Assembly (NCBI RefSeq): GCF_038502225.1
Contig: NC_091292.1
Coordinates: forward strand, 45,604,699-45,668,698
Direction: 5' to 3'
Source: Cherax quadricarinatus
Lineage: Eukaryota > Arthropoda > Malacostraca > Decapoda > Parastacidae
DNA length: 64,000 nt
Position 1 is the first letter of the stretch; each line of letters starts with the position of its first letter. A program made the position numbers and the translations under genes. Below the pieces are notes generated by a model that was not told the origin of the DNA, made no database searches, and saw nothing but the letters and a program-made list of their open reading frames with translations. Of the stretch, positions 3,577-42,237 are shown piece by piece.

Positions 3577-3633
3577 CTTTATTATGAAACGTTTCGCCTA
3601 CACAGTAGGCTTCTTCAGTCAAGTACAGAAAAG
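3577..3633 (-). ncRNA. Hammerhead ribozyme-like motif 1
   Basis: On the minus strand: distal stem I CTTT, then TTGA, core CTGAAGA, an extra A, stem II GCCTAC-TGT-GTAGGC, GAA, stem III half ACGT, then TTCA pairing with TTGA, and AAAG closing the distal stem. Stem III is only a self-complementary ACGT, so cleavage would need a dimer. Confidence 0.7.
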
Positions 3634-3817
3634 TTGATAGAAGCAGAAGATACTTGAAGACGATGTAATCAGTCCATCACCCTTAAAGTCACTTCTTCTC
3701 CATATTGTTTCATACTATGGAACAATGCTCTTCTCCAGACTGAGGGACTGACCACCTCAAAACTTTAAGGGTGATGGACTGATTACATCGTCTTCAAGTT
3801 TCTTCTGCTTCTATCAA

Positions 3818-3874
3818 CTTTTCTGTACTTGATTGAAGAAGCCTACTGTGTAGGCGAAACGTTTCATAATAAAG
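3818..3874 (+). ncRNA. Hammerhead ribozyme-like motif 2
   Basis: Same family as motif 1, opposite strand. The core reads TTGAAGA (3833-3839), so the invariant C3 is T. Stem II and GAAACGTT are intact. Probably inactive. Confidence 0.6.
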
Positions 3875-4096
3875 ATACCTAACTGTTGCATATGTGTCTT
3901 ACCTAACAACCTGTCGGTATTTTATACCATTTTAATGTTCATCTGTCAGACACTGCAACACAAGGGTATCTTGGTACAGACCTGCAATCAACTTCGACAA
4001 CTTCCACTAGTGAGAGGGGCTGGATTTGAGAGGGACCTGACCTTTCAACATCTGAGTTCTTACCTCTCCTAGTGGCCTACGTCTCACCTCTTGGCG

Positions 4097-4106
4097 CTAT
4101 AAAAAG
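4097..4106 (+). promoter_or_regulatory. TATA-like box of P1 unit
   Basis: CTATAAAAAG lies ~150 bp upstream of hammerhead motif 3. The same relative position holds TATA-like boxes in the units at 34.7, 35.2, 37.6, 38.0 and 42.3 kb. Confidence 0.45.
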
Positions 4107-4245
4107 CTCCATCCTGTCACTTCTTCTCCATATTGTTTCATACTATGGAACAATGCTCTTCTCCAGACTGAGGGACTGACCACCTCAAAACTTTAAGGGT
4201 GATGGACTGATTACATCGTCTTCAAGTATCTTCTGCTTCTATCAA

Positions 4246-4302
4246 CTTTTCTGTACTTGACTGAAGAAGCCTACTGTGTAGGCGAAACGTTTCATAATAA
4301 AG
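4246..4302 (+). ncRNA. Hammerhead ribozyme-like motif 3
   Basis: Core CTGAAGA at 4261-4267, stem II 4269-4283, GAAACGTT at 4284-4291. Stem I pairs TGA (upstream) with TCA (4292-4294), and distally CTTT with AAAG. AATAAA (4296-4301) sits in the 3' strand of stem I. Confidence 0.72.
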
Positions 4303-4448
4303 ATACCTAACTGTTGCATATGTGTCTTGCTTGTAGCTAGTTCTTGGATATCTGCACAAGGGGCGTGACACCAATATTCACAAAAATGGCATGTAATCCA
4401 TGTGGAAGCCCGTTTGTTTGATTTACTGCAGACTACACAGAGCTTCAT

Positions 4449-5393
4449 AATGTGATTTGAATGGGTGATTTACTGTAATTCTACTAGTAACTTCTTGAAT
4501 ATTCTACTAATAACCTCCTTAAAGTGAAGTTCTGGCTATTTGTATATCTATTTCTAACTGTACTTGTATATTTGGACAGCTTACCGATGCACGTTTCTGT
4601 TTTATATTTATTGTTCGTGTTTGATAAGGGCGCCTAAAACCCCGTCTGTTTACAGTCTGCTTTATTATCCAACGAATCCGTTTGAAACCGGTCAAGGGTT
4701 CGGATCAGCCAAGGGTTCGGACCAGTCGGATCTGATCAGTGGGTCACTTACTTAAAACATATCTGGTCGGTGATTTACGCTAACACATGAAGGAACTACT
4801 GGAAATTATTTAACCGAGTAATATGTGATTAGATTAATACAAAAGTATAACTTGCGTGTTGAAGAACCGGTGATTGCTGGAAGCTCCTACAATGACGAAC
4901 GGTCGAGACCTTTATTTACAGCTTGAAGGATTATCGATCACTGTATCTAGCTTTTCTAGGTTTTTCCGTCTCCACCACAACAAATGCTATGTTATCACTA
5001 TAGTTGGCTGGTGAAAATTATTGGAGGAAAGATGCTTTTTCTGGAGTAATATTTGCTTTTCGTTGTGTATATTGCGACCGCTGGTAACTTCAGGTTGTAT
5101 GAATTTCACTGTATACGTCTGGTATTTCAAGAATGAAGAAAAAACTAATGATGGTCACTCCACTCCAATAAGTACCATTATATTACTGCTTAGTTGCCAC
5201 TACAACACTGTACTCTGCTATTCACTGGTATCACTAGATTATATGGAGGTACACTAGCAGGCCAGGAAGATTATTAAAACAGCTGACCTGTGTGGTAAGT
5301 TTCTGGCGACTCTGGCACCTGCCTCTTTAGGCCTATCACTTCAGTTTCAATTACACTAGTTTTAAATGACACTTTAGCATTCATTATCTACAT
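4449..5393. other. Non-coding; possibly the 5' UTR of B1 then unassigned
   Basis: This stretch lies upstream (minus strand) of the B1 ORF1 ATG, so part of it is probably the B1 5' UTR. A short direct repeat CAAGGGTTCGGA(T/C)CAG occurs at ~4692 and ~4711. I see no convincing coding frame, RNA gene or element boundary up to the satellite. Confidence 0.4.
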
Positions 5394-8225
5394 GCTAGGG
5401 TGCCACTGTAGTATACACTATAACACTATGTATACTAGGGTGCCACTGTAGTATACACTATAACACTATGTATACTAGGGTGCCACTGTAGTATACACTA
5501 TAACACTATGTATACTATGGTGCCACTGCAGTATACACTATGTATACTAGGGTGCCACTGTAGTATACACTATAACACTATGTATACTAGGGTGCCACTG
5601 TAGTATACACTATAACACTATGTATACTAGGGTGCCACTGTAGTATACACTATAACACTATGTATACAAGAGTGCCACTGTAGTATACACTATAACACTA
5701 TGTATACTAGGGTGCCACTGTAGTATACACTATAACACTATGTATACTAGAGTGCCACTGTAGTATACATTATAACACTATGTATACTATGGTGCCACTG
5801 TAGTATACACTATAACACTATGTATACTATGGTGCCACTGTAGTATACACTATAACACTATGTATACTAGTGGGCCACTGTTGTATATACTATAACAAAA
5901 TGTATACTAGGGTGCCACTGTAGTATACACTATAACACTATGTATACTAGGGTGCCACTGTAGTATACACTATAACACTATGTATACTAGGGTGCCAATG
6001 TAGTACACACTATAACACTAACTATACTATGGTGCCACTGTAGTATACACTATAACACTATGTATACTATGGTGCCACTGTAGTATACACTATAACACTA
6101 TGTATACTAGGGTGCCACTGTAGTATACACTATAACACTATGTATACTAGGGTGCAACTGTAGTATACACTATAACACTATGTATACTATGGTGCCACTG
6201 TAGTATACACTATAACACTATGCATACTAGGGTGCAACTGTAGTATACACTATAACACTATGTATACTATGGTGCCACTGCAGTATACACTATAACACTA
6301 TGTATACTAGAGTGCCACTGTAGTATACACTATAACACTATGTATACTATGGTGCCACTAGTATACACTATAACACTATGTATACTATGGTGCCACTGTA
6401 GTATACACTATAACACTATGTATACTATGGTGCCACTAGTATACACTATAACACTATGTATACTAGGGTGCCACTGTAGTATACACTATAACACTATGTA
6501 TACTATGATGCCACTGCAGTATACACTATAACACTATGTATACTAGAGTGCCACTGTAGTATACACTATAACACTATGTATACTATGGTGCCACTAGTAT
6601 ACACTATAACACTATGTATACTAGGGTGCCACTGTACTATACACTATAACACTATGTATACTATGGTGCCACTGTACTATACACTATAACACTATGTATA
6701 CTAGAGTGCCACTGTAGTATACACTATAACACTATGTATACTATGGTGCCACTGTAGTATACACTATAACACTATGTATACTAGGGTGCCACTGTAGTAT
6801 ACACTATAACACTATGTATACTAGGGTGCCACTGTAGTATACACTATAACACTATGTATACAAGAGTGCCACTGTAGTATACACTATAACACTATGTATA
6901 ATAGGGTGCCACTGTGGTATACACTATAACACTATGTATACTATGGTGCCACTGTAGTATACACTATAACGCTGTGTATACTAGGGTGCCACTGTAGTAT
7001 ATATTATAACACTATGTATACTATGGTGCCACTGTAGTATACACTATAACACTATGTATACTAGTGGGCCACTGTTGTATATACTATAACACAATGTATA
7101 CTAGGGTGCCACTGTAGTATACACTATAACACTATGTATACTAGGGTGCCACTGTAGTATACACTATAACACTATGTATACTAGGGTACCAATGTAGTAC
7201 ACACTATAACGCTAAGTATACTATGGTGCCACTGTATTATACACTATAACACTATGTATACTATGGTGCCACTGTAGTATACACTATAACACTATGTATA
7301 CTAGGGTGCCACTGTAGTATACACTATAACACTATGTATACTAGGGTGCAACTGTAGTATACACTATAACACTATGTATACTATGGTGCCACTGTAGTAT
7401 ACACTGTAACACTATGCATACTAGGGTGCAACTGTAGTATACACTATAACACTTTGTATACTATGGTGCCCCTGCAGTATACACTATAACACTATGTATA
7501 CTAGAGTGCCACTGTAGTATACACTATAACACTATGTATACTATGGTGCCACAAGTATACACTATAACACTATGTATACTATGGTGCCACTGTACTATAC
7601 ACTATAACACTATGTATACTATGGTGCCACTGTACTATACACTATAACACTATGTATACTAGGGTGCCACTGTAGTATACACTATAACACTATGTATACT
7701 AGGGTGCCACTGTAGTATACACTATAACACTATGTATACTAGGGTGCCACTGTAGTATACACTATAACACTATGTATACTATGGTGACACTGTAGTATAC
7801 ACTATAACACTATGTATACTATGATACCACTGTAATATACTGTAACACTATGTATACTATGGTACCACTGTAGTATACACTGTAACACTATGTATACTAG
7901 AGTGCCACTGTAGTATACACTATAACACTATGTATACTATGGTGCCACTGTAGTATACACTATAACACTATGTATACTAGGGTGGCACTGTAGTATACAC
8001 TATAACACAATGTATACTAGGGTGCCACTGTAGTATACACTATAACACTATGTATACTATGGTAAAACTGTAGTATACACTGTAACACTATGTATACTAT
8101 GATACCACTGTAGTATACACTGTAACACTATGTATACTATGGTACCACTGTAGTATACACTGTAACACTATGTATACTATGGTACCACTGTAGTATACAC
8201 TGTAACACTATGTATACTATGGTAC
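5394..8225. repeat. 40-bp satellite array, ~70 copies
   Basis: Tandem 40-bp unit reading GGTGCCACTGTAGTATACAC then TATAACACTATGTATACTAG. Each unit has two GTATAC palindromes. Most copies differ by 1-3 bases and a few are shortened by about 4 bases (for example near 6355 and 6430). Diagnostic variants recur 1190 bp apart (5671 and 6861; 5870 and 7060; 5990 and 7180), showing a higher-order duplication. The last ~10 units switch to TGTAACACTATG/GGTACCACTG variants. The Gypsy element interrupts the array at its right end. Confidence 0.95.
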
Positions 8226-8978: not shown

Positions 8979-8990
8979 CCCCCACACCCA
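8979..8990 (-). other. Putative polypurine tract
   Basis: Minus strand TGGGTGTGGGGG directly abuts the 3' LTR, as expected of the plus-strand primer site of an LTR element. It is short and not purely purine. Confidence 0.5.
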
Positions 8991-11436: not shown

Positions 11437-11516
11437 CTTCCCTTACATCTGAACATCAAAATGGTATACAATACCGACAGGTTGGTAGGTAAGACACATA
11501 GGCAACAGTTAGGCAA

Positions 11517-11572
11517 CTTTATTCCGAAACGTTTCGCCTACACAGTAGGCTTCTTCATTTGAATACAGAAAG
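11517..11572 (-). ncRNA. Hammerhead ribozyme-like motif 4 (degenerate)
   Basis: Stem II (GCCTAC/GTAGGC) and GAAACGTT are intact, but the core reads ATGAAGA instead of CTGANGA. Probably inactive. Confidence 0.55.
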
Positions 11573-11668
11573 TAGGCAGGAACAGTAGAGATGTGAAGAC
11601 GATGTAATCAGTCCATCAAGGGTGATGGACTGATTACATCGTCTTCACATCTCTACTGTTCCTGCCTA

Positions 11669-11724
11669 CTTTCTGTATTCAATTGAAGAAGCCTACTGTG
11701 TAGGCGAAACGTTTCGGAATAAAG
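11669..11724 (+). ncRNA. Hammerhead ribozyme-like motif 5 (degenerate)
   Basis: Mirror partner of motif 4. The core reads TTGAAGA; stem II, GAAACGTT and AATAAAG are intact. Its sibling at 38459 keeps the canonical C. Confidence 0.58.
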
Positions 11725-11769
11725 TTGCCTAACTGTTGCCTATGTGTCTTACCTACTTCCCTTACATCT

Positions 11770-15074: not shown

Positions 15075-15078
15075 TAAT

Positions 15079-19905: not shown

Positions 19906-21412
19906 AAGGAGTAGTTCCTACAAGCACCAGACAAGCTCTAAGGAGTGGTTCCTACAAGCAGCAGACAAGCTCTAAGGAGTGGGTCCTACAAGCAGCAGAC
20001 AAGCTCTAAGGAGTGGGTCCTACAAGCAGCAGACAAGCTCTAAGGAGTGGTTCCTACAAGCAGCAGACAAGCTCTAAGGAGTGGTTCCTACAAGCAGCAG
20101 ACAAGCTCTAAGGAGTGGCTCCTACAAGCAGCAGACAAGCTCTAAGGAGTGGGTTCTACAAGCAGTAGACAAGCTCTAAGGAGTGGTTCCTACATGCAGC
20201 AGACAAGCTCTAAGGAGTGGTTCCTACAAGCAGCAGACAAGCTCTAAGGAGTGGTTCCTACAAGCAGCAGACAAGCTCTAAGGAGTGGTTCCTACAAGCA
20301 GCAGACAAGCTCTAAGGAGTGGTTCCCATAAGCAGCAGACAAGCTCTAAGGAGTGGGTCCTACAAGCAGCAGACAAGCTCTAAGGAGTGGTTCCTACAAG
20401 CAGCAGACAAGCTCTAAGGAGTGGTTCCTACATGCAGCAGACAAGCTCTAAGGAGTGGTTCCTATAAGCAGCAGACAAGCCATAAGGAGTGGTTTCTACA
20501 AGCAGCAGACAAGCTCTAAGGAGTGGTTCCTAAAAGCTGCAGACAAGCTCTAAGGAGTGGTTCCTACAAGCAGCAGACAAGCTCTAAGGAGTGGTTCCTA
20601 CAAGCAGCAGACAAGCTCTAAGGAGTGGTTCCTACAAGCAGCAGACAAGCTCTAAGGAGTGGTTCCTACAAGCAGCAGACAAGCTCTAAGGAGTGGTTCC
20701 TACAAGCAGCAGACAAGCTCTAAGGAGTGGTTCCTACAAGCAGCAGACAAGCTCTAAAGAGTGGTTAATACAAGCAGCAGACAAGCTCTAAAGAGTGGCT
20801 CCTACAAGCAGCAGACAAGCTCTAAGGAGTGGTTCCTACATGCAGCAGACAAGCTCTAAGGAGTGGTTCCTACATGCAGCAGACAAGCTCTAAGGAGTGG
20901 TTCCTACATGCAGCAGACAAGCTCTAAGGATTGGTTCCTACATGCAGCAGACAAGCTCTAAGGAGTGGTTCCTACAAGCAGCAGACAAGCTCTAAGGAGT
21001 GGTTCCTACATGCAGCAGACAAGCTCTAAGGAGTGGTTCCTACATGCAGCAGACAAGCTCTAAGGAGTGGTTCCTACAAGCAGCAGACAAGCTCTAAGCC
21101 CTAAGGAGTGGTTCCTACATGCAGCAGACAAGCTCTAAGGAGTGGTTCCTTCATGCAGCAGACGAGCTCTAAGGAGTGGTTCCTACATGCAGCAGAGAAG
21201 CTCTAAAGAGTGGTTCCTACATGCAGCAGACAAGCTCTAAGGAGTGGTTCCTACATGCAGCAGACAAGCTCTAAGGAGTGGTTCCTACATGCAGCAGACA
21301 AGCTCTAAGGAGTGGTTCCTACATGCAGCAGACAAGCTCTAAGGAGTGGTTCCTACATGCAGCAGACAAGCTCTAAGGAGTGATTCCTACATGCAGCAGA
21401 CAAGCTCTAAGG
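19906..21412. repeat. 34-bp minisatellite, ~44 copies
   Basis: Unit AAGGAGTGGTTCCTACAAGC then AGCAGACAAGCTCT (34 bp). Two subtypes, ACAAGCAG and ACATGCAG, are not mixed evenly: the first dominates before ~20.8 kb and the second after it. One unit near 21100 has an 8-bp duplication (CTAAGCCCTAAGG). Confidence 0.95.
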
Positions 21413-22149
21413 ACGCCCTGATCGTACACAGGAGTGAACTATCGCATCTAGCTAACAACATTCTCGGGAATTACAATTCAATCAGGTAAAGTGTGCCAGG
21501 AACAGTGCCAAGTTAGGCCTAACATGGCTGAGGAATGTACTCAGATGGTAGGTAACCAGCTGACACCAGTGCGCCGGCAGTGACTCTAAGATAAGTATGT
21601 TTATTTAGCTACAGGTACACATAAATGCAGTTATACAAATTATCATACATAATAAAATATGTGTAACTTACCTAGGATAACCCTAAAAAGTCAGACAAAG
21701 TGTCTTATTTCCATTGGAGTCTTTGCAATACCTTATTATTTAAACCTTAAAAATTAAAACAGTTGAGTAACTCATGTAGATTTTTAACCATGTGGAGGGC
21801 AGAGTAAGTGCGCCTGCCTTCCCTTCACAGCTAGTTATCTTATTTCATACTTTTCAAATCGTTGAGGTAGAGCGAGAAATACTAGTTCAATGATGTTTAT
21901 ATAGTTCATTCTCCAGGTAACACATACTTATCTCCTCCCAGGCAGCGCCATCACACCCCCACACCTCCCTCTACTGTTGTTCCCTCAGTAACCCAGTGCA
22001 GTGTTCGTTTTTGCATTCTGCCATCTCTCTCCTCCCCCACACCTCCCTCTACTGTTGTTCCTTTAGCATCCCGTGGAAGCATTCTTCCCCCTCTCTCTCC
22101 TCCCTGCAACAATAAATTGTGCGCAAAGCTGTTTCTTGATTATAGACGC
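21413..22149. other. Unassigned non-coding DNA
   Basis: Mixed-composition sequence with CT-rich stretches (for example 21930-22100, where CCCACACCTCCCTCTACTG occurs twice about 80 bp apart). No coding frame or RNA gene is supported. Confidence 0.4.
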
Positions 22150-26053: not shown

Positions 26054-26089
26054 ATACACAAATAACCCGCACATAAAAGACAGAAGCTT

Positions 26090-26121
26090 ACGACGACGTT
26101 TCGGTCCGATTTGGACCATTG
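26090..26121 (-). ncRNA. Hammerhead-like motif 6 (reduced)
   Basis: Stem II GGTCC/GGACC followed by GAAACGTC. The core at the palindrome centre reads TGACAA rather than CTGANGA, and I cannot pair a stem I. Weak. Confidence 0.35.
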
Positions 26122-26154
26122 TCAATGGTCCAAGTCGGACCGAAACGTCGTCGT
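26122..26154 (+). ncRNA. Hammerhead-like motif 7 (reduced)
   Basis: Mirror of motif 6. Stem II and CGAAACGTC are intact, but the core is altered by the palindrome centre (TGTCAATGG). Confidence 0.33.
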
Positions 26155-26239
26155 AAGCTTCTGTCTTTTATGTGCGGGTTATTTGTGTATCGTTCCAGTC
26201 ACGGTATTGTGCCTTTTTGTTATTTATAACCTTTATATT

Positions 26240-30151: not shown

Positions 30152-30991
30152 ATGCCCTCCATCGAGCAACTTTACCAGCAACTTAAGGAAGAATTGAGGG
30201 CAGCGAAGATGGAGATACGGCGATTGACCGAGGAAAACAAGAGGATTCGTAGTAGTCCTCCTGTTTCGAGTCCTCAGGTCAAGAAGGGATCGTGGTCAGT
30301 GGCTGGACAGCAGGGGACGACGAAGTTGACGATCAAGAAGACTAATGGAAAGCCAGAAACGATGAAGAAGAAAGAGACTGCTGTGGAAACTCCCGTGGAA
30401 ACCTCCAACGCATTCTCGGTGCTACCCGACGAATGTGAGTCTACTACTGGGATCTTCACGACGAACGACAACAAGGAAGGTAAGAATATTGTTGTTGTTG
30501 GGGATAGCCAGGTTAGATACATGGATAGCGCATTCTGCTTGAAGGACAGGAGTAGGAGACAAAGGGTATGCTTTCCTGGGGCTGGGATGGAGGACATTGT
30601 TAGCCGGCTTGACAACATCATGAACGGTAATGGGATCAATCCTATTATTTGCCTCAGTGCTGGAGGCAATGATGTAGGCAAGCGTAGAAGTGAGGATTTA
30701 GTTAGAAAGTTCAGGACAGCTATAGACATGATTAGGAAGAAGGGGGGGCACCCTGTTATATGTGGCATTTTGCCAAGAAGAGGTGTTGGTAATGAATGGT
30801 TGTCCAGAGCAATTGGTATTAATTGTTGGCTGGATAAACACTGTAAGGATAATGCAGTACCATTCATTGACAACTGGGACAACTTCTATTGCCGAAATGA
30901 CATGTATGCCAGGGATGGGGTTCACTTATCCAGGGCAGGTGTGGGTTTTCTTGCTAACTCAGTTGAGGGGGTTGTTAGGACTTTAAACTAG
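30152..30991 (+). CDS. A1 ORF1: coiled coil plus SGNH-hydrolase-like domain
   Basis: 279 residues. Residues ~5-35 (LYQQLKEELRAAKMEIRRLT) form a likely coiled coil. From ~110 there is an SGNH/GDSL-like esterase fold: block I VVVGDSQVRYMD with the nucleophile Ser, block III SAGGNDVGK, and block V ARDGVHLSRAG with the Asp-His pair. Esterase-type ORF1s are known in part of the CR1 group; their role in retrotransposition (RNA or membrane binding) is not settled. No zinc knuckle. All catalytic residues are present and the frame is intact. The start is the first ATG after the tandem repeats. ORF2 follows after 14 bases. Confidence 0.85.
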   Translation: MPSIEQLYQQLKEELRAAKMEIRRLTEENKRIRSSPPVSSPQVKKGSWSVAGQQGTTKLTIKKTNGKPETMKKKETAVETPVETSNAFSVLPDECESTTGIFTTNDNKEGKNIVVVGDSQVRYMDSAFCLKDRSRRQRVCFPGAGMEDIVSRLDNIMNGNGINPIICLSAGGNDVGKRRSEDLVRKFRTAIDMIRKKGGHPVICGILPRRGVGNEWLSRAIGINCWLDKHCKDNAVPFIDNWDNFYCRNDMYARDGVHLSRAGVGFLANSVEGVVRTLN

Positions 30992-31005
30992 GATTAGTTA
31001 GAGGT

Positions 31006-32997
31006 ATGGGTTTAGAAATGATTAATAATGAGTATGGATATACTGACTTATGCTCTGATATTAAGAATCTTAATAGTAACTGTCATGGAGTAACTCTGGG
31101 TAATGATAATTTCAGAAATTGTGTAAAAACAAAGATGAATAGGAAAAATGTGCAGAAGAAAAAACATATGATGGTATTTTATGCTAACAGTCGAAGTGCA
31201 AGAAATAAAATTAATGAACTACGTTTGGTAGCATGTGCTGGGAACTTTGATATCATTGCATTAACTGAAACGTGGTATGATTTAAAGAGTCGGGATATGA
31301 CTGCTGAGTGTAATATTCAGGGATTTAAGTTGTTCAATGTGGATAGATGTAATGGGAAGGGGGGAGGAGTTGCATTGTATGTTCGAGAAAATATTAATTG
31401 TTGCATAAAAACAGGTATAAAAATAGATGGAGCAGTAACAGAGTCTGTTTGGGTAGAGTTCGTGGAGGATCAAGAAAAACTAATTCTAGGTGTAATATAC
31501 CGACCTCCAGGCTTGGATCCCGATAGAGGGAGACTTCTTTGGGACGAAATTGTTAGGGCTTCTGGACACAGTAACATAGTCATAGTAGGGGACTTTAACT
31601 TTAGCCAAATTGACTGGAATTCTTTGACAGGTAATCTAGAGTCCAGTGACTTCATGGAAACAGTTCAGGACTGTTTTCTGAAACAGAGTGTAACTGAGCC
31701 TACCAGGGGTAATAATTTGCTAGACCTAGTCTTGTCAAATAAGGAAACACTCGTGAATAATCTGGAGATCACTGAAGAGCTTGGCGCAAGTGATCACAAA
31801 TCCATCACCTTTAGCATTAATTGGGAATGCAAGAATAATGATAATACAGTAAAAATCCCTGATTTTCGTTCTGCCGATTATAATGGACTTAGGGAACATC
31901 TGTCTAATCTTGATTGGGGATATCTAGCTAATGATTTTATTGACGATAATCATACTTATGAATATGAAGGGATCTGCTTTTATGATTGTTTTCTTAATAA
32001 TGTACACAGTGCCCAGAGTATATACATTCCCCAGAGAGAAATTAGGTCTAATAATAACGATCCCAAATGGGTTAACAGGAGGCTAAAGCATCTATTAGGG
32101 GAGAAAAGGGGAATTTATAGGCGCATCAGAAGAGGAGAGGTTAACCTTACTGACCAATATGTTCAGCTTAAAAGAGAAGTAAAAAAGGCGATTAGAAAGG
32201 CTAAACGTGACTATGAAATTAGAGTTGCTAATGAATCAAAGACTAATCCAAAGGGGTTCTTTCAAGTGTATAGGACGAAGGTGAAGGAAAAAGTAGGACC
32301 TCTGAAATCTGGGAATGGACAGCTGACGGATAATGAACTGGAAATGTGTTCCTTATTTAATGACTATTTTTTGTCAGTTTTTACACAGGAAGATGTAAAT
32401 GAGATTCCAGTAATTAACAATTATTTAGTTCCTGATGAATTTAAGTTAACTAATATTACTGTCACGAGGGACATGGTTATTAAACAGATAGACAAACTGA
32501 AACAAAATAAGTCCCCAGGACCCGATGAGTTGTTTTCAAGGGTACTTAAGGAATGCAAGATGGAGCTTAGTCAGCCATTAACGAGTGTATTCAATGCGTC
32601 CATCCTTACCAGTGTTGTGCCAGAGTTGTGGAAGATGGCTAATGTGGTTCCTATATTCAAATCAGGGGATAGGTCCACTCCTTCAAATTACCGTCCAATA
32701 AGCCTGACATCTATAGTGGGCAAGTTATTAGAATCAATTATAGCTGACATTATCAGAAATCACCTTGAAGAGCATAACTTGATAAATGAATCTCAGCATG
32801 GATTCACGAGAGGTCGTTCCTGCCTGACAAACTTACTGACGTTCTTCAATAGAACATTTGAGGCAGTTGACAGTGATAAGGAATATGATATTGTTTATTT
32901 GGATTTTAGTAAAGCCTTCGACAGAGTACCTCACAAGAGACTCTTAAGAAAAGTGGCAGCTCATGGTATAGGAGGTAAAGTTCTAGCATGGATTGAG
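31006..32997 (+). CDS. A1 ORF2, 5' part: endonuclease and first half of RT
   Basis: Endonuclease: FYANSRSARNKINEL, IIALTETW, CNGKGGGVALYVRE, IVIVGDFNFSQIDW and GASDHKSITF give the APE-type catalytic set (N, E, D/N, SDH). It nicks target DNA to prime reverse transcription. The linker is basic. RT begins with SPGPDELFSRVLKE, NYRPISLTSIVGKLLES, QHGFTRGRSCLTNLL and DIVYLDFSKAFDRVPHKRLL (first catalytic Asp). The frame ends artificially at the inserted array and resumes at 38594. The true start may be the ATG at 31006 or one further in, near the endonuclease. Confidence 0.87.
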
Positions 32998-33032
32998 GCG
33001 TTAGGTAAGACACATATGCAACAGTTAGGTAT

Positions 33033-33088
33033 CTTTATTTCGAAACGTTTCGCCTACACAGTAGGCTTCTTCAGTCGAGTACAGAAAG
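33033..33088 (-). ncRNA. Hammerhead ribozyme-like motif 8
   Basis: Core CTGAAGA, stem II GCCTAC-TGT-GTAGGC, GAAACGTT; stem I TCGA pairs with TCGA, and distal CTTT with AAAG. Canonical apart from an extra A before stem II and a stem III of only ACGT. Confidence 0.75.
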
Positions 33089-33228
33089 GTTGATAGAAGC
33101 AGAAGATACTTGAAGACGATGTAATCAGTCCATCACCCTTAAAGTTTTGAGGTGGTCAGTCCCTCAGTCTGGAGAAGAGCATTGTTCCGTTGTCTGAAAC
33201 AATATGAAGTTGAAGTGACAGAATGGGG

Positions 33229-33239
33229 CCTTTATATAG
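33229..33239 (-). promoter_or_regulatory. TATA-like box of a 401-bp unit
   Basis: Minus strand CTATATAAAGG, ~150 bp upstream of motif 8. Repeated at ~33750 and ~34151 in the following units. Confidence 0.45.
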
Positions 33240-33432
33240 TGCCAGGAGGTGAGACGTAGGTTGCTTTGGGAGGGCAGGTCCTTCTCAAACCCAGCCGTTC
33301 TCACTAGTAGAGGTTGTCGAAGTGGTCTGTACCAAGATACCCTTGTGTTGCAGTGTCTGACAGAATGAACATTAAAATGGTATGAAATACCGACAGATTG
33401 TTAGGTAAGACACATATGCAACAGTTAGGTAT

Positions 33433-33488
33433 CTTTATTTCGAAACGTTTCGCCTACACAGTAGGCTTCTTCAGTCGAGTACAGAAAG
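33433..33488 (-). ncRNA. Hammerhead ribozyme-like motif 9
   Basis: Identical core to motif 8. It lies in the 121-bp truncated unit, so it is directly followed by another motif. Confidence 0.75.
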
Positions 33489-33553
33489 AACATTAAAATG
33501 GTATAAAATACCGACAGATTGTTAGGTAAGACACATATGCAACAGTTAGGTAT

Positions 33554-33610
33554 CTTTATTTCGAAACGTTTCGCCTACACAGTAGGCTTCTTCAGTCGAG
33601 TACAGAAAAG
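33554..33610 (-). ncRNA. Hammerhead ribozyme-like motif 10
   Basis: Same core as motif 8, in a full 401-bp unit; only 121 bp from motif 9 in the same orientation, a spacing suited to dimer formation in one transcript. Confidence 0.75.
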
Positions 33611-33954
33611 TTGATAGAAGCAGAAGATACTTGAAGACGATGTAATCAGTCCATCACCCTTAAAGTTTTGAGGTGGTCAGTCCCTCAGTCTGGAGAAGAG
33701 CATTGTTCCGTTGTCTGAAACAATATGAAGTTGAAGTGACAGGATGGAGCCTTTATATAGTGCCAGGAGGTGAGACGTAGGTTGCTTTGGGAGGGCAGGT
33801 CCCTCTCAAACCCAGCCGTTCTCACTAGTAGAGGTCGAAGTTGATGGTCTGTACCAAGATACCCTTGTGTTGCAGTGTCTGACAGAATGAACATTAAAAT
33901 GATATAAAATACCGACAGATTGTTAGGTAAGACACATATGCAACAGTTAGGTAT

Positions 33955-34011
33955 CTTTATTTCGAAACGTTTCGCCTACACAGTAGGCTTCTTCAGTCGA
34001 GTACAGAAAAG
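33955..34011 (-). ncRNA. Hammerhead ribozyme-like motif 11
   Basis: Same core and stem I pairing as motif 8; exactly 401 bp from motif 10. Confidence 0.75.
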
Positions 34012-34355
34012 TTGATAGAAGCAGAAGATACTTGAAGACGATGTAATCAGTCCATCACCCTTAAAGTTTTGAGGTGGTCAGTCCCTCAGTCTGGAGAAGA
34101 GCATTGTTCCGTTGTCTGAAACAATATGAAGTTGAAGTGACAGGATGGAGCCTTTATATAGTGCCAGGAGGTGAGACGTAGGTTGCTTTGGGAGGGCAGG
34201 TCCCTCTCAAACCCAGCCGTTCTCACTAGTAGAGGTCGAAGTTGATGGTCTGTACCAAGATACTCTTGTGTTGCAGTGTCTGACAGAATGAACATTAAAA
34301 TGGTATAAAATACCGACAGATTGTTAGGTAAGACACATATGCAACAGTTAGGTAT

Positions 34356-34411
34356 CTTTATTTCGAAACGTTTCGCCTACACAGTAGGCTTCTTCAGTCG
34401 AGTACAGAAAA
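34356..34411 (-). ncRNA. Hammerhead ribozyme-like motif 12
   Basis: Same core; last of the minus block, abutting the inversion point of the array. Confidence 0.75.
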
Positions 34412-34503
34412 TGCTCTTCTCCAGACTTAGGGACTGACCACCTCAAAACTTTAAAGGTGATGGACTGATTACATCGTCTTCAAGTATCTTCTGCTTCTAT
34501 CAA

Positions 34504-34560
34504 CTTTTCTGTACTCGACTGAAGAAGCCTACTGTGTAGGCGAAACGTTTCGAAATAAAG
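34504..34560 (+). ncRNA. Hammerhead ribozyme-like motif 13
   Basis: First of the plus block. Core CTGAAGA at 34519-34525, GAAACGTT at 34542-34549, AATAAA in the 3' strand of stem I. Confidence 0.75.
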
Positions 34561-34754
34561 ATACCTAACTGTTGCATATGTGTCTTACCTAACAATCTGT
34601 CGGTATTTTATACCATTTTAATGTTCATTCTGTCAGACACTGCAACACAAGGGTATCTTGGTACAGGCCATCAACTTCGACCTCTACTAGTGAGAACGGC
34701 TGGGTTTGAGAGGGACCTGCCCTCCCAAAGCAACCTACGTCTCACCTCCTGGCA

Positions 34755-34765
34755 CTATATAAAGG
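34755..34765 (+). promoter_or_regulatory. TATA-like box of a 401-bp unit
   Basis: CTATATAAAGG, ~150 bp upstream of motif 14. Confidence 0.45.
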
Positions 34766-34904
34766 CTCCATCCTGTCACTTCAACTTCATATTGTTTCAG
34801 ACAACGGAACAATGCTCTTCTCCAGACTGAGGGACTGACCACCTCAAAACTTTAAGGGTGATGGACTGATTACATCGTCTTCAAGTATCTTCTGCTTCTA
34901 TCAA

Positions 34905-34961
34905 CTTTTCTGTACTCGACTGAAGAAGCCTACTGTGTAGGCGAAACGTTTCGAAATAAAG
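34905..34961 (+). ncRNA. Hammerhead ribozyme-like motif 14
   Basis: Identical to motif 13 and 401 bp downstream of it. Confidence 0.75.
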
Positions 34962-35155
34962 ATACCTAACTGTTGCATATGTGTCTTACCTAACAATCTG
35001 TCGGTATTTTATACCATTTTAATGTTCATTCTGTCAGACACTGCAACACAAGGGTATCTTGGTACAGACCATCAACTTCGACCTCTACTAGTGAGAACGG
35101 CTGGGTTTGAGAGGGACCTGCCCTCCCAAAGCAACCTACGTCTCACCTCCTGGCA

Positions 35156-35166
35156 CTATATAAAGG
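35156..35166 (+). promoter_or_regulatory. TATA-like box of a 401-bp unit
   Basis: CTATATAAAGG, 401 bp after the one at 34755. Confidence 0.45.
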
Positions 35167-35306
35167 CTCCATCCTGTCACTTCAACTTCATATTGTTTCA
35201 GACAACGGAACAATGCTCTTCTCCAGACTGAGGGACTGACCACCTCAAAACTTTAAGGGTGATGGACTGATTACATCGTCTTCAAGTATCTTCTGCTTCT
35301 ATCAAC

Positions 35307-35362
35307 CTTTCTGTACTCGACTGAAGAAGCCTACTGTGTAGGCGAAACGTTTCGAAATAAAG
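35307..35362 (+). ncRNA. Hammerhead ribozyme-like motif 15
   Basis: Same core; distal stem I begins CCTTTCTG instead of CTTTTCTG, keeping CTTT:AAAG. Confidence 0.75.
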
Positions 35363-35523
35363 ATACCTAACTGTTGCATATGTGTCTTACCTAACAATCT
35401 GTCGGTATTTTATACCATTTTAATGTTCATTCTGTCAGACACTGCAACACAAGGGTATCTTGGTACAGACCATCAACTTCGACCTCTGTTGTTAGGTAAG
35501 ACACATATGCAACAGTTAGGTAT

Positions 35524-35580
35524 CTTTATTTTGTAACGTTTCGCCTACACAGTAGGCTTCTTCAGTCGAGTACAGAAAAG
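35524..35580 (-). ncRNA. Hammerhead ribozyme-like motif 16 (degenerate)
   Basis: CTGAAGA, stem II and GAAACGTT are intact, but the 3' strand of stem I reads ACAAAA and no longer pairs with TCGA. It belongs to a more diverged unit that also has TATAAAAAGG near 35720. Confidence 0.6.
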
Positions 35581-36086
35581 TTGATAGAAGCAGAAGATAC
35601 TTGAAGACGATGTAATCAGTCCATCACCCTTAAAGTTTTGAGGTGGTCAGTCCCTCAGTCTGGAGAAGAGCATTGTTCCATAGAATGAAACAATATGGAG
35701 ATGAAGTGACAGGATGGAGCCTTTTTATAGCGCCAACAGGTGAGACGTAGGTCACTAGGAGAGGTAAGAACTCAGATGTTGGAAGGACAGGTCCCTCTCA
35801 AATCTAGCCGTTCTCACTAGTAGAGGTTGTAGAAGTTGATTGTAGGTCTGTACCAAGATACCCTTGTGTTGCAGTGTCTGACAGATTGAACATTAAAATG
35901 GTATAAAATACCGGTATTTTATACCATTTTAATGTTCAATCTGTCAGACACTGCAACACAAGGGTATCTTGGTACAGACCTACAATCAACTTCTACAACC
36001 TCTACTAGTGAGAACGGCTAGATTTGAGAGGGACCTGTCCTTCCAACATCTGAGTTCTTACCTCTCCTAGTGACCTACGTCTCATA

Positions 36087-37216
36087 AGAACATAAGAACA
36101 TAAGAACGAAGGAACACTGCAGAAGGCCTACTGGCCCATGCGAGGCAGGTCCAAGTCTCCTACCGGCTTAAGCCAATGCACCCAACCTAGTCAGGTTAGG
36201 TCACATTGACTTAAGGGAGGAACACGGCAACCGACCTGGTAGCACAAGCTATCAGGTCTAACTCACACCCACCCACATCCACTCATGTATTTATCCAACC
36301 TATTTTTAAAGCTACACAACGTTCTGGCCTCTATAACGGTACTTGGGAGTTTGTTCCACTCATCCACAACTCTATTACCAAACCAGTACTTTCCTATATC
36401 CTTCCTGAATCTGAATTTTTCCAACTTAAAACCATTGCTGCGAGTCCTGTCTAGGCTAGATATTTTCAGCACACTATTTACATCCCCTTTATTTATTCCT
36501 GTCTTCCATTTATACACCTCAATCATATCCCCCCTAATTCTACGTCTTTCTAGAGAGTGCAGATTCAGGGCCCTTAGTCTATCCTCATAGGGAAGGTTTC
36601 TGATACATGGGATCAACTTTGTCATCCTCCTTTGTACATTTTCCAGAGAATTTATATCCATTCTGTAATAAGGTGACCAAAACTGTGCAGCATAATCTAA
36701 ATGAGGCCTAACCAAGGATGTATAGAGTTGAAGAACAACCTGAGGACTCCTATTATTTATGCTTCTTGATATGAAGCCAAGGATTCTATTAGCTTTATTG
36801 CGAACACTTATGCACTGTTGTCTTGGTTTCAGATTACTGCTAACCAGAACTCCTAAATCTTTTTCGCAATCCGTAATATTAAGATCTACATTATTTAGTT
36901 TATATGTGGCATGGTTATTGTCCTGTCCAACATTTAGAACTTTGCATTTGTCTATATTAAACTGCATCTGCCACTTCTCCGACCACTGCATCAGTCTATT
37001 CAAATCTTCCTGGAGTGCTCGAATGTCCTCGTCAGAATGAATTCGACGGCCGATTTTGGTGTCATCGGCAAACTTGCCGATGTCGCTCTTTATGCCCTCA
37101 TCTATGTCGTTTATGTAGATTGTGAACAGCAGGGGGCCCAACACTGACCCCTGTGGAACACCGCTCGTGACACTTCCCCACTCTGATTTCTCCCCATTTA
37201 TGCAAACTCTCTGCTG
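36087..37216 (-). mobile_element. CR1-group LINE, family A' 3' fragment inside the array
   Basis: 5'-truncated LINE, minus orientation, inserted in a ribozyme unit after CCTACGTCTCA. The 3' octamer tail (ATAAGAAC repeats on the plus strand) lies at 36087-36110 and a long 3' UTR follows. The sequence GTCTCA occurs at both junctions (possible 6-bp duplication). Almost identical to the A' fragment at 42.5-43.2 kb. Confidence 0.85.
36263..37216 (-). pseudogene. A' ORF2 fragment: RT active site and C-terminal domain
   Basis: Open from QRVCINGEKSEWGSVTSG through VPQGSVLGPLLFTIYIND and FADDTKIGRRIHSDED (catalytic Asp pair) to the conserved C-terminal region (SLVRPHLDYAAQFWSPYYRM, LDKYMSGCGWV) with no break. 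It lacks the endonuclease and the first half of RT. The open frame and near-identity with 42538-43041 suggest a recently active A' subfamily. Confidence 0.85.
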
Positions 37217-37381
37217 TCTCACCTGTTGGCGCTATAAAAAGGCTCCATCCTGTCACTTCATCTCCATATTGTTTCATTCTATGGAACAATGCTCTTCTCC
37301 AGACTGAGGGACTGACCACCTCCAAACTTTAAGGGTGATGGACTGATTACATCGTCTTCAAGTATCTTCTGCTTCTATCAA

Positions 37382-37438
37382 CTTTTCTGTACTCGACTGA
37401 AGAAGCCTACTGTGTAGGCGAAACGTTTCAAAATAAAG
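37382..37438 (+). ncRNA. Hammerhead ribozyme-like motif 17
   Basis: Core CTGAAGA intact; stem I reads TCGA upstream against TCAA downstream, so the third pair is C-A mismatched. Confidence 0.65.
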
Positions 37439-37586
37439 ATACCTAACTGTTGCATATGTGTCTTACCTAACAACCTGTCGGTATTTTATACCATTTTAAT
37501 GTTCAACTTCGACCTCTACTAGTGAGAACGGCTGGGTTTGAGAAGGACCTGCCCTCCCAAAGCAACCTACGTCTCACCTCCTGGCA

Positions 37587-37597
37587 CTATATAAAGG
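37587..37597 (+). promoter_or_regulatory. TATA-like box of a ribozyme unit
   Basis: CTATATAAAGG, ~150 bp upstream of motif 18. Confidence 0.45.
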
Positions 37598-37737
37598 CCC
37601 CATTCTGTCACTTCAACTTCATATTGTTTCAGACAACGGAACAATGCTCTTCTCCAGACTGAGGGACTGACCACCTCAAAACTTTAAGGGTGATGGACTG
37701 ATTACATCGTCTTCAAGTATCTTCTGCTTCTATCAAC

Positions 37738-37793
37738 CTTTCTGTACTCGACTGAAGAAGCCTACTGTGTAGGCGAAACGTTTCGAAATAAAG
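37738..37793 (+). ncRNA. Hammerhead ribozyme-like motif 18
   Basis: Canonical family-1 core and stem I; its unit is interrupted 14 bases later by the nested element at 37808. Confidence 0.75.
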
Positions 37794-37839
37794 ATACCTA
37801 ACTGTTGAAAGTTAAGACACATGTGCAACATCTGGATAT

Positions 37840-37893
37840 CTTTATTGTAGTAGACGTTTCGCCATCCAGTGGCTTTATCAATACAGATTCTAG
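37840..37893 (-). ncRNA. Hammerhead-like motif 19 (TTGATAA variant)
   Basis: Core TTGATAA (C3 to U, G8 to A) but stem II GCCA-CTGGA-TGGC and GAAACGTC are intact, and stem I pairs GTA with TAC. The cleavage position would be the usual GUC. The loss of G8 argues against normal catalysis. Confidence 0.5.
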
Positions 37894-38014
37894 GACATAA
37901 TAGGAAGACAGTAGAACTATATACAAAAGATGAGGTAATCAGTCCCTCGGCCTTGGAGTTAGTGTTCACAGCATCGTGGTGGAGGAGAGTCTGGAGCAAA
38001 GGCAAGAAGACTGG

Positions 38015-38025
38015 CGCTTTTTATA
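38015..38025 (-). promoter_or_regulatory. TATA-like box of P5
   Basis: Minus strand CCTATAAAAAG, ~120 bp upstream of motif 19. Confidence 0.42.
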
Positions 38026-38458
38026 GGCGTCAGTGAATGGGACGGGCAGCAGACGAGGGCAGTCACTGGTAGGCGGGATTCCCCAGTGGAAGTAGGTCCT
38101 TCCCAAAGAGATGGGTTAGTTGCAGCAGCCGTGAAGAAGGTCTTGTAGATGTCCTCTGAACCAAGATTCCATGATGTTGCAGTGTCTGACAAGTTGTGCA
38201 AGAAAGGTATTTTATACCTTTCTTGCATACCTAACTGTTGCATATGTGTCTTACCTAACAATCTGTCGGTATTTTATACCATTTTAATGTTCATTCTGTC
38301 AGACACTGCAACACAAGAGTATCTTGGTACAGACCATTCCATAGTCAGTTCCTGACTATGGAACTGAACTTCTCCAGGCCGAGGGACTGACAACCTCAAA
38401 TTCTACGACTTTAAGGGTGATGGACTGATTACATCGTCTTCTCTACTGTTCCTGCCTA

Positions 38459-38514
38459 CTTTCTGTATTCGACTGAAGAAGCCTACTGTGTAGGCGAAAC
38501 GTTTCGGAATAAAG
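38459..38514 (+). ncRNA. Hammerhead ribozyme-like motif 20
   Basis: Family-2 motif (as in P2) with the canonical CTGAAGA. Stem I pairs TTCGA with TCGGAA (one G-U), distal CTTT with AAAG. Confidence 0.73.
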
Positions 38515-38593
38515 TTGCCTAACTGTTGCCTATGTGTCTTACCTACCAACCTGTCGGTATTGTATACCATTTTGATGTTCATTTTAATGTTCA

Positions 38594-40085: not shown

Positions 40086-40406
40086 GACTGCTGTAAAGGT
40101 AGGGTTTGTGCTAAGGGGTGTGGGTCGTTAGTGCGAAGTGTGGTTTGCTTTGGGTTAATTTGTTTGGTAAGAGTGGGGCGATTGGGGTTGATGGTGTTCT
40201 GCAGGTGGTTCTATGGGTCACTGTATTTGCTGATCCTCCCGAGTCTGAGCCCTGTGTCTGTCTCTAGCCCTGTCTCTCCTTCAGGCCTTTTTCATCTTAG
40301 GATCCTCACTCTCAATTTCTGTCACTCCTTTCATGTTTTGTTGCAGTTGATGTACACCAGCTGGTATTATGATGAGTCCTTCAGCAGTGGTGTCTCCTGC
40401 AGGATC
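40086..40406. other. Unassigned non-coding DNA
   Basis: GT-rich then CT-rich; no supported frame or element. Confidence 0.4.
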
Positions 40407-40454
40407 CTGTTTCACATTGTAAAGTAAAAGGACACAAGTGCAACTAATGTGACA

Positions 40455-40500
40455 TTTATTGTGGCAACGTTTCGCTCTCCAGGAGCTTTATCAAGCCATT
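40455..40500 (-). ncRNA. Hammerhead-like motif 21 (TTGATAA variant)
   Basis: TTGATAA, stem II GCTC/GAGC, GAAACGTT, and stem I TGGC pairing with GCCA, ending in AATAAA. Confidence 0.5.
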
Positions 40501-40502
40501 GT

Positions 40503-40548
40503 AATGGCTTGATAAAGCTCCTGGAGAGCGAAACGTTGCCACAATAAA
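40503..40548 (+). ncRNA. Hammerhead-like motif 22 (TTGATAA variant)
   Basis: Mirror copy of motif 21. TGGC (40504-40508 region) pairs with GCCA just after GAAACGTT. Confidence 0.5.
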
Positions 40549-40632
40549 TGTCACATTAGTTGCACTTGTGTCCTTTTACTTTACATATTGTCGGTAATTC
40601 TACCAACTTTATTACAATCTGTTTCACATTGT

Positions 40633-40854
40633 TTCTGTCTAGAAAATCAATTTGACTGAATGATTTTTCCCCTAGAGTATTTCACTATTCTCTGAAAATC
40701 TGTCTTATTGCTCAAGTCCTCCACTCCTATTCAAAGATATTTTCACTCTCTTCTTCCTCCCCCTATCGTCTTTCTTTGTAAGTCATCCTTTCAGCCTTCT
40801 GAAGTTCCCAAATAAAAATTTACCTCTCCTTTTACTCTTTCATTGCATTCCCTT
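40633..40854. other. Unassigned non-coding DNA
   Basis: CT-rich sequence between P6 and the old LINE A; its lower end may include the decayed 3' UTR of that LINE. Confidence 0.35.
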
Positions 40855-41272
40855 CCATATGTCTTTTCTAAATCTAAATTTGTCCAATTTGAATTCATTA
40901 TTTCGAGTTCTTTCTTACAGGGATATCCCAAGAATCGTTTTTCATAACTCCCTTATTTATGTCTATATTCCACTTATGCACTTAAATCATGTCTCCCTTC
41001 ATTCTACATCTAACAAGAGAATGCAGGTTATGGGACTTCAATCTCTCTTCATATGGAAGATTCCTTAAGCAACGGATTAATTTTGTCAATCTTCTTTGAA
41101 TGTTCTCTAACGAATACATATCCATTCTCTGGTATGGAGAGCAGAACTGATCTGCATAATCTAAGTGAGGTCTTACTAATATTGTGTAGAGCTGTAGTAT
41201 AACCTCTGGACTTCTGTTGCTTACAATTCTTGATAAAAAAAAACAGTAATTTGTTTGCCTTATAACATATGC
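40855..41272 (-). pseudogene. Old family-A LINE (host copy), piece i: C-terminal ORF2
   Basis: Minus strand reads FLSRIVSNRSPEVILQLYTI, LVRPHLDYADQFCSPYQRMD, NIQRRLTKLIRCLRNLPYEE, with a stop after RCRMKGDMI. It is clearly family A but more diverged than A1-A3. It ends at the D1 insertion; its upstream continuation is at 47857. TAACATATGC (41263-41272) is the duplicated target of D1. Confidence 0.8.
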
Positions 41273-41371
41273 GTCATTGTTCGCATCGCTATTGTGCCGT
41301 GCGGACAGGCTGCGAAGTAGCTCCTGATACAACTGGTTTACTGCGCAGTTTTCCTGTTTTGTGCATACAAC

Positions 41372-42150
41372 ATGGCGGATCGCATTGGACGCCGGGTGAG
41401 CACTGTTTGTGTGGAATTGGTGCGTGGCACGCTTACAGGAACAACCATGCACGTGTTACTGCATGCCATCATCAGTGAGGTATATGGAATACCGACCGAA
41501 GAATTATATGGAGTAGCAGTAAATGGTGTGTCGAGAATTTTCATCAAGTTTAAAGACGCAGGATTCTACACAAGCATAGTCAACAAATATCAAGAGAAGA
41601 GGCTGGCAGTGAACACTATGGTGGAAGTCTGCTTACATGATGTGTCCAGCTATGTGACGTGGGTGAAAGTACGAAACGTGCCTTTTGAGGCGACGGAGCA
41701 TGATGTGACGGCGGTGTTTAGCAGCTATGGGAAAATCCACTCAGCAGTGATGGGTGTGTGGCAAAATGGACCTTATGAGGGGCTACCTGAAGGATCATTT
41801 ACGCTGAAAATGACGTTGAGGCAGCCAATTCCATCATACGTATTTATGGAGGTCTTCCGAACGCAGGTCTACGTGTACTACTCAGGGCAGCGGAAGACTT
41901 GCAGATTATGTGGTTCTTTTGAACATATGGCGGCCCTATGCTATAAAAAAGCTGGACGGAGGGAACAGGTACCAGTGATCTTACAACAGAGGAATGCTCT
42001 GGAGGTGTCGGAGGAAGGAGTAAGGCCAAACAAGATTCCTTGCCGATGGAGTGACGAAGTGGATAGGGCTGAGGCGGCCATGGAGGAAAGTGTAACACTA
42101 ACAGTTGATAAGGGGCAGACGACATCGACGTCTGATGAGGAGGGTACAGG
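41372..42150 (+). CDS. D1 ORF1, 5' part: RRM-like fold and CCHC knuckle
   Basis: Begins MADRIGRRVSTVCVELVRGT, aligned with the ORF1 starts of D2-D4. Residues ~95-175 form an RRM-like domain (WVKVRNVPFEATEHDVTAVF, GSFTLKMTLRQPIPSYVF). A CCHC knuckle follows (CRLCGSFEHMAALC). This arrangement is typical of Tx1-type ORF1 proteins, which bind element RNA. The frame is interrupted at 42151 by P7 and continues in frame at 43244. Confidence 0.85.
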
Positions 42151-42185
42151 TTGATAAATTAGACACATGTGCAACTCTTGGGTAT

Positions 42186-42237
42186 CTTTATTGAGGAAAC
42201 GTTTCGCCACACAGTGGCTTCATCAGTCCATACAAAG
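42186..42237 (-). ncRNA. Hammerhead ribozyme-like motif 23
   Basis: Best canonical core in the window: CTGATGA, an extra A, stem II GCCAC-TGT-GTGGC, GAAACGTT. Stem I pairs GGA with TCC, and distally CTTT with AAAG; AATAAA lies in the 3' strand. Confidence 0.75.

Follow-up and report, generated by a model that had tools for sequence, protein, structure and literature searches.

The crayfish Cherax quadricarinatus carries, in a stretch of 64,000 nucleotides (nt) of contig NC_091292.1 (positions 45,604,699 to 45,668,698, hereafter the window) and elsewhere in its genome, short units with a hammerhead-ribozyme-like motif that are arranged in back-to-back arrays. The type of motif is known already; the arrays document the insertion of such elements with unusual clarity. 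Most arrays whose two ends could be classed are a single insertion with the 3' ends of the units pointing outward, one end being short (S) and the other long (L). The fixed outer ends, the single tail, the single target duplication and the variable inner joins point to priming from two ends on a multimeric or circular template, and it is probable that hammerhead-bearing derivatives of Penelope-like elements (PLEs) form their arrays in this manner on one such RNA. The initial annotation of the window, made from its letters, overlooked this architecture, which is the informative part, as well as the non-coding nature of most copies.

The array sample consists of the window, the adjoining region L029 and 20 places in the 3.95-Gb genome, picked by eye from a list of 82 matches that came from 40 scored candidates. 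Sampled loci and window together hold 208 sites with a stem II (including one at 26096 that is rejected below), and neighbours of the same family (families being told apart by stem II) less than 1 kb apart are minus-minus in 49 cases, plus-plus in 31, minus-plus in 40 and plus-minus in 7. Spacing between non-coding units on the same strand is as a rule uniform inside one array, 65 of 80 spacings being 378-428 bp and the rest 89-366 or 474 bp, and spacing across the inversion is variable (42-749 bp for non-coding units, 822-6,108 bp for PLEs). In most measured arrays the outer ends cluster around two positions, at about 46 and about 78 nt beyond the hammerhead. Counting from the conserved GAAACGT, I classed ends at 38-53 nt as S and at 72-86 nt as L, which accommodates 71 of the 80 3' arm ends of family A1 (31 S and 40 L, with peaks at 43-49 and 78-80 nt; seven L ends read 85 nt through chance extension), 13 of 14 in B1 and 15 of 28 in A2, where seven unclassed ends stop at 20 nt and belong to a subtype without a close reference. 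The 5' arm ends scatter between 0 and 396 nt and are overrepresented at 8-17 nt (12 of 79 in A1).

An array was defined as a minus run followed by a plus run, so that orientation itself lies outside the test of the ends. Both ends could be classed in 26 of 36 arrays, giving 13 LS, 12 SL, one LL and no SS. The resulting 25 mixed arrays compare with a mean of 13.2 and a maximum of 23 in 20,000 reshufflings of the ends. Target duplications of at least 7 bp surround the whole array in 18 of these 26 (17 of them 9-14 bp long), as against 9 of 620 mismatched flanks. The stretch of about 32 nt that separates S from L corresponds to the 'tail' of PLEs, which passages on a lizard PLE describe as the stretch between two adjacent start sites of reverse transcriptase (RT) (PMC11167929), and which is optional and sits on one of two inverted pseudo-long terminal repeats (pseudo-LTRs) in the part of a study that deals with a rotifer Penelope (PMC3846280).

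The genome holds three coding PLE families that bear the motif in both pseudo-LTRs, as seen in one copy of each, and with these the membership in the PLE group proposed in the initial annotation holds; the hammerhead family of one of them occurs in the window too. In the PLE-1 copy (hammerhead family B2; minus strand of L029) a 773-codon open frame at 1038-3356 lies between hammerheads at 3418-3445 and 739-766, with a period of 2,679 bp. The PLE-2 copy (A3; L055) has hammerheads at 813 and 3372, a 789-codon frame and a period of 2,559 bp, and the PLE-3 copy (B3; L056) hammerheads at 472 and 3060, a 793-codon frame and a period of 2,588 bp. The C-terminal part of the PLE-1 protein (P0001), which the scan for the GIY-YIG domain covered, matches RVT_1 and GIY-YIG in Pfam and has telomerase RT chains (TERT) as its only relatives in the PDB; a relative of PLE-2 (P0002) matches RVT_1, and PLE-2 and PLE-3 are 59% and 61% identical to PLE-1. 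At least 106 copies of PLE-1 on 35 contigs are 100% identical over 388 amino acids (best of 77,189 candidates), which indicates very recent spread. In the three copies described above AATAAA follows GAAACGT at 4-7 nt, a GTCGGT..ACC hairpin at 53-56 nt and the first ATG of the protein at 99-100 nt, and the right ends of the PLE-2 and PLE-3 copies stop at about 47-48 nt, as counted by eye.

Coding copies less than 10 kb apart, among those listed, are minus-plus 30 times, plus-plus 8 times and minus-minus once in PLE-1; minus-plus 28, minus-minus 4 and plus-plus 1 in PLE-2; and minus-plus 18 and plus-plus 3 in PLE-3, so that all 76 inverted pairs are minus-plus and none is plus-minus. Tandem spacings are 2,672-2,694 bp in six of nine cases in PLE-1 (2,150-2,532 bp in the others), 1,974-2,559 bp in PLE-2 (five cases) and 2,536-2,584 bp in PLE-3 (three cases). 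The combination of an open reading frame (ORF) with RT and GIY-YIG, pseudo-LTRs and head-to-head copies is shared with PAc of Anolis and with the Penelope of Adineta, as the relevant sections of both sources portray them, and so is the optional tail between two RT start sites, which measures 30-40 bp in Penelope/Poseidon PLEs (PMC11167929, PMC3846280). Target duplications are likewise reported there for Adineta, of 8-10 bp (PMC3846280). What sets the crayfish apart from these accounts is that entire arrays of several units, each array with one S and one L end, are built by non-coding derivatives. At L024:6183-6393, spaced 70-bp repeats consist of the end and tail region of PLE-1, possibly the seed of a satellite.

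Most copies in the window are non-coding units of about 380-430 bp (378-428 bp when complete) without an RT or endonuclease ORF of their own, and a search of the window for PLE RTs gave no match except short ones to the non-PLE start of P0002. Families A1, A2 and B1 share the PLE leader, that is the hammerhead, AATAAA 4-7 nt further on, the tail with its GTCGGT..ACC hairpin and a block resembling GTCAGACACTGCA; in A2 and B1, three of the four copies inspected also have an ATG at 97-101 nt, the PLE position. Together with the tail, the two end points and the target duplications, this places them among PLE-derived units, and the most plausible reading is that they arose from PLEs by deletion. 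It is highly improbable that CR1/Jockey-type retrotransposons move them as ordinary non-LTR retrozymes. ORFs for non-LTR-type RTs are frequent in the window, and the retrotransposons abundant there are presumably of CR1/Jockey type; size and tandem order would also suit, animal non-LTR retrozymes being characterised in the portions of PMC7229834 concerned with them as non-coding tandem units with a hammerhead, a few hundred bp long (150-450 bp). In contrast to these, the crayfish units have a minimal hammerhead of PLE type, whose helix III has no loop, and occur in inverted arrays; their leader, hairpin tail and S end agree with the PLE families of this very genome, and the 12-nt flanks inspected contain no poly-A run. 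Animal retrozymes are marked by RNA circles in tissue, which for the crayfish units are hypothetical. PLEs have earlier been suspected as helpers of retrozymes, according to a section of a review (PMC7761336), and the crayfish arrays are a concrete candidate for this suspected link.

The inner junctions of the arrays are variable and show microhomology. The two arms differ by more than 20 nt at the junction in 27 of 36 arrays and hold unlike numbers of units in 18, and overlaps of 1-25 nt occur in 23 (22 of them 1-8 nt), the random mean being 0.67 nt. This bears on self-priming, in which one cDNA (complementary DNA) folds back and copies itself into an inverted array. In the part of the rotifer study available for comparison, fold-back with an antisense template was proposed to explain Penelope copies that stand head to head and have palindromic junctions (PMC3846280); near-perfect palindromes are present in the window at 11485-11756 and 40418-40585, and the difference is at most 20 nt in 9 of the 36 junctions, differences of up to 10 nt being a little commoner than expected (6 vs 3.0, P 0.07). 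However, the asymmetry of most junctions and the unequal arms speak against it, and one S and one L end, as found in 25 of 26 classed arrays, is not what copying the first arm would produce, so I consider self-priming not likely.

Complete units were compared for A1 (39 units in 15 arrays), B1 (10 units in 3 arrays) and A2 (one array). Per approximately 400 sites, A1 units differ at 1.87 within an arm, 1.73 between opposite arms and 26.1 between arrays, and B1 units at 1.18, 0.86 and 80.2, respectively. Variable sites inside arrays comprise 24 private singletons (four in the sole A2 array, where privacy is unjudgeable) and 10 of other states, seven of which lie in the window array, whose leftmost unit resembles a separate copy. 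In five arrays (A1 at L020, L022 and L024, B1 at L009 and L013) opposite arms are alike yet distinct from other loci. These arrays argue against a growth of the arms after insertion, in which roughly one unit per arm is delivered and unequal crossing-over and conversion do the rest. Such growth would suit the regular same-strand spacings and the homogeneity of the arrays, which is often found in satellites; on the other hand, most classed arrays have retained their target duplication and their S and L ends, and some PLE-1 copies with identical proteins already stand in full-unit tandems, so that little time can have elapsed. I regard this explanation as unlikely.

Minimal type I hammerheads of PLEs have reportedly been treated by Cervera and de la Pena (2014) and by Lunse, Weinberg and Breaker (2017). 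Judged by its sequence, the crayfish motif appears to be this published, helix-III-less form. U4, G5, A6, A9, an extra A, G10.1 and GAAACGU are invariant across 47 distinct aligned sites, and in all 47 helix III is a loopless ACGU, not the canonical helix III of non-LTR retrozymes. Pair 3-8 is C-G in 30 sites, U-A in 14, U-G in 2 and otherwise composed in 1, which brings 44 of 47 into line with the core CUGANGA/GAAA/NUH; over 210 raw matches, three non-members included (26096 and two others), it is CG 164, UA 42, UG 2 and others 2 times. Stem I, stem II and pair 3-8 covary between families. Double-sided changes occur in ten of 11 tested pairs (5.9 on average in shuffles, with 1 of 500 equally high), doubly changed cells number 61 vs 17.2 and the covariation score is 0.378 vs 0.150 (both 0 of 500 as high), further pair types are 22 vs 17.4 (3 of 500), and sliding the partner columns by 1-3 lowers the paired cells from 89.9% to 34-49%. 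These values come from kin copies of about six families in one genome, and the shuffles ignore kinship. The covarying flanks that the initial annotation listed (TCGA/TCGA, TGA/TCA, GGA/TCC, GTA/TAC and TGGC/GCCA) are all there, and its distal pairing CTTT/AAAG recurs in part, many A1 copies having TTTT for CTTT and B1 having no such pairing. Of its two departures from textbook form, the extra A before stem II is constant; insertions of 1-2 nt beside the CUGAnGA box are already on record in the pertinent part of PMC10085705. The ACGU-only stem III is no departure among PLE hammerheads, since these are described without helix III in sections of two reviews (PMC7761336, PMC6155905). The core, the short stems, the position in pseudo-LTRs, the tandems and the suspected dimers also agree with the hammerheads of those sections; what appears to differ from the descriptions in reviews is that an extra A always separates the CUGAnRA box from stem II and that three of the six families here have U3-A8 cores. 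Covariation of U3-A8 was considered as a novelty and rejected, as the exchange, with natural occurrence and activity in vitro, is covered by section 8 of PMC3088659. In a small tree PLE-1 (U-A) pairs with PLE-2 (C-G) with a support of 0.94 and PLE-3 (U-A) falls outside, so pair 3-8 would have changed once if U-A is ancestral there and twice if C-G is. In silico folding gives a dimer via GAAACGUUUC in two of six sequences (A1 and A1b), the remaining four pairing differently.

The hammerhead-like shape might alternatively be a feature of the DNA, for instance an endonuclease site or a hairpin bound by RT or another protein, with no function as RNA. Cleavage is indeed hypothetical here, all 126 A1 copies have the core upstream of AATAAA, so that none ends at the predicted cut site, and a lizard PLE inserts without ribozyme activity in the experiments excerpted from PMC11167929. 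A DNA feature is nevertheless improbable, as stem I and C3-G8/U3-A8 covary while UGA and GAAACGU are fixed, which is the pattern of a hammerhead core, and as U3-A8 cores are reported to be active (PMC3088659, section 8).

With priming from both ends, then, insertion could proceed as follows. The PLE protein would cut both strands of the DNA with a stagger of mostly 9-14 nt. Each DNA 3' end would then prime cDNA synthesis on a shared unit RNA, beginning at S for one end and at L for the other, and microhomology would serve to join the resulting arms. The several units per arm would follow from a template that is multimeric or circular. The lizard PLE protein is able in vitro to cut both strands and to extend them, and two adjacent RT starts bound the tail, as far as the relevant part of PMC11167929 goes. 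I am less sure of the steps before: the hammerhead, dimeric via its palindromic ACGU helix III, may cut a tandem transcript into unit RNAs, and a host ligase may close these into circles. An origin of the circle through hammerhead cleavage and ligation is speculative, and the fuller proposal, that the PLE RT copies ribozyme-cut circular unit RNAs by rolling circle from both ends of the break, with S and L starts, is a possibility that I put forward tentatively and with some doubt.

Several observations weigh against this picture. An end could not be classed in 10 of the 36 arrays, and 8 of the 26 classed arrays lack a duplication of at least 7 bp. The seven plus-minus neighbours do not fit either; perhaps they are separate insertions. 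In four of the eight A1 arrays with at least two complete units (L012, L019, L025 and the window) another locus is as close as the units of the array itself, so that the shared origin of the arms rests on the five arrays named above. Homogeneous arms could also stem from transcripts of arrays that were already homogeneous, or from gene conversion, and the slight excess of symmetric junctions and the uneven tandem spacing of the coding PLEs belong here as well. Concerning the ribozyme, the lack of A1 copies that end at the cut site fits closed circles and uncut templates alike. In the pages of PMC11167929 devoted to the lizard PLE, hammerhead mutants insert normally in vitro, cleavage needs the PLE protein and no reads end at the cut site, which is the strongest published point seen against a required ribozyme.

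Transposition of PLEs is poorly understood, and the arrays can serve as its fossil record; the role of the PLE hammerhead is called unknown in a passage of a review (PMC7761336). If rolling-circle copying of circular units is true, non-coding PLE derivatives spread as back-to-back tandem arrays, retrozymes and PLEs share one life cycle, and inverted pseudo-LTRs, optional tail and conserved hammerhead are accounted for jointly. The literature searched contains no report of non-coding PLE derivatives with a minimal hammerhead in inverted arrays with S and L ends, a weak negative with the primary papers on PLE hammerheads outside the search.

Arrays of A1 and B1 also recur at a single position in A2 units, which comprises all or part of CAAAGAGGAA and lies immediately upstream of the A2 hammerhead (L013:4792-5834, L013:5846-6192, L014:4871-6176, L015:4831-6035 and L019:2420-5110), and their inner junctions differ. 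This suggests a preferred insertion site in other pseudo-LTRs, likely a hot spot, which would account for nested clusters.

Within the window the motif is present far above chance. A strict pattern (core, GAAACGT and a stem II of at least 4 bp) has 21 matches over the whole 64 kb, 17 of them with 3 bp or more in stem I, and 200 dinucleotide shuffles of the window gave no match with a stem II. It skips 11529(-), where C3 is replaced by A, and takes in 26096(-), which has no stem I. The covariance model R1, for which the 47 distinct sites of the window and of loci L009-L027 served as input with 26096 excluded, finds 21 sites as well, at 53.2-66.3 bits, with the next match at the chance level of 19.1 bits; these include 11522-11564(-) and exclude 26096, and since R1 contains the window sites or their copies, the gap measures separation, not independence. 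In 25 viral contigs where the core pattern occurs by chance, its best score is 20.7 bits; none of the 25 core-pattern matches in viral contigs has a 5-bp stem II. The PLE proteins have no relatives among the viral contigs searched. The initial annotation was thus right about the motif but counted 23 where R1 gives 21, and of the searches it proposed, the model built from the sites succeeded and the Rfam models returned no match in the window at the gathering cut-off. Up to E = 10, Rfam gives 27 weak matches in the window, none to a hammerhead; those to microRNA families were dismissed as below cut-off, lying mostly on palindromes of inverted units or on a 40-bp minisatellite. On a 66-base stretch at about 42.2 kb, Hammerhead_3 reaches 13.4 bits (cut-off 48.5) with the extra A counted as inserted; a second stretch, at 34.5 kb, has no match of this kind. 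The site 26096(-) was rejected as a member, having no stem I and no match to R1: it lies in a 137-bp palindrome (26054-26190) in which TTGACAA..GAAACGTCGTCG imitates the core. A long pattern match at 42151 is an artefact of the opposite strand. Where about six families had been claimed, stem II gives four in the window, namely A1 with 17 sites in several stem I subtypes, A2 with 1, B1 with 1 and B2 with 2, so that the figure depends on the splitting. The sites occupy both strands, in tandem and inverted arrays:

3511..4328, order minus, plus, plus: non-coding A1 array, hammerheads 3589-3618(-), 3833-3862(+) and 4261-4290(+)
11441..11755, minus and plus: near-palindromic A1 pair, hammerhead-like 11529-11558(-) (C3 to A) and 11683-11712(+) (U3, stem I broken)
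33000..35487, order five minus, three plus: main array of 401-bp A1 units, hammerheads at 33045, 33445, 33566, 33967, 34368 (-) and 34519, 34920, 35321 (+)
35488..36084: A1-type insert adjoining the main array, hammerhead 35536-35565(-), stem I broken
37216..37807 (limits approximate), plus: two A1 copies with hammerheads at 37397-37426 (a single stem I pair is broken) and 37752-37781
37804..38226 (limits approximate), minus: B1 unit, hammerhead 37854-37881(-), core TTGATAA (U3-A8)
38227..38583 (limits approximate), plus: A1 copy, hammerhead 38473-38502(+)
40418..40585: B2 pseudo-LTR, a 168-bp palindrome, hammerheads 40467-40494(-) and 40509-40536(+)
42146..42520 (right limit approximate), minus: A2 unit, hammerhead 42199-42226(-), core CTGATGA (C3-G8)

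The array at 3511-4328 has an L end with tail on the left, an S end without tail on the right and an 11-bp target duplication, GCTTGTAGCTA, at 3500-3510 and 4329-4339. The flanks of the pair at 11441..11755 match over 4 bp only. The main array has an S end on the left, an unclassed end on the right and its inner inversion junction at about 34404-34411, and the insert beside it has a plus arm without hammerhead and a 344-bp palindrome centred at about 35913. B2 is the hammerhead family borne by the coding PLE-1. Decay is visible in U3 opposite G8 at 3833 and 11683, A3 at 11529 and a broken stem I at 11683, 35536 and 37397. Same-strand junctions spaced 121-122 bp occur in the main array (33445-33566) and at L009, L010, L024, L026, L027 and L028; in these an L end is directly joined to a copy cut just upstream of its hammerhead, at a recurring point.

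The left end of the main array sits inside an ORF that presumably belongs to a non-LTR retrotransposon (31006-33093, interrupted at 33000). Such ORFs are presumably numerous in the window (30152-33000, 58243-60726 and others), 30152-30991 being, I assume, an esterase-like first ORF. Two minisatellites are also present, one of 71 copies of 40 bp (5395-8223) and one of 44 copies of 34 bp (19906-21413).

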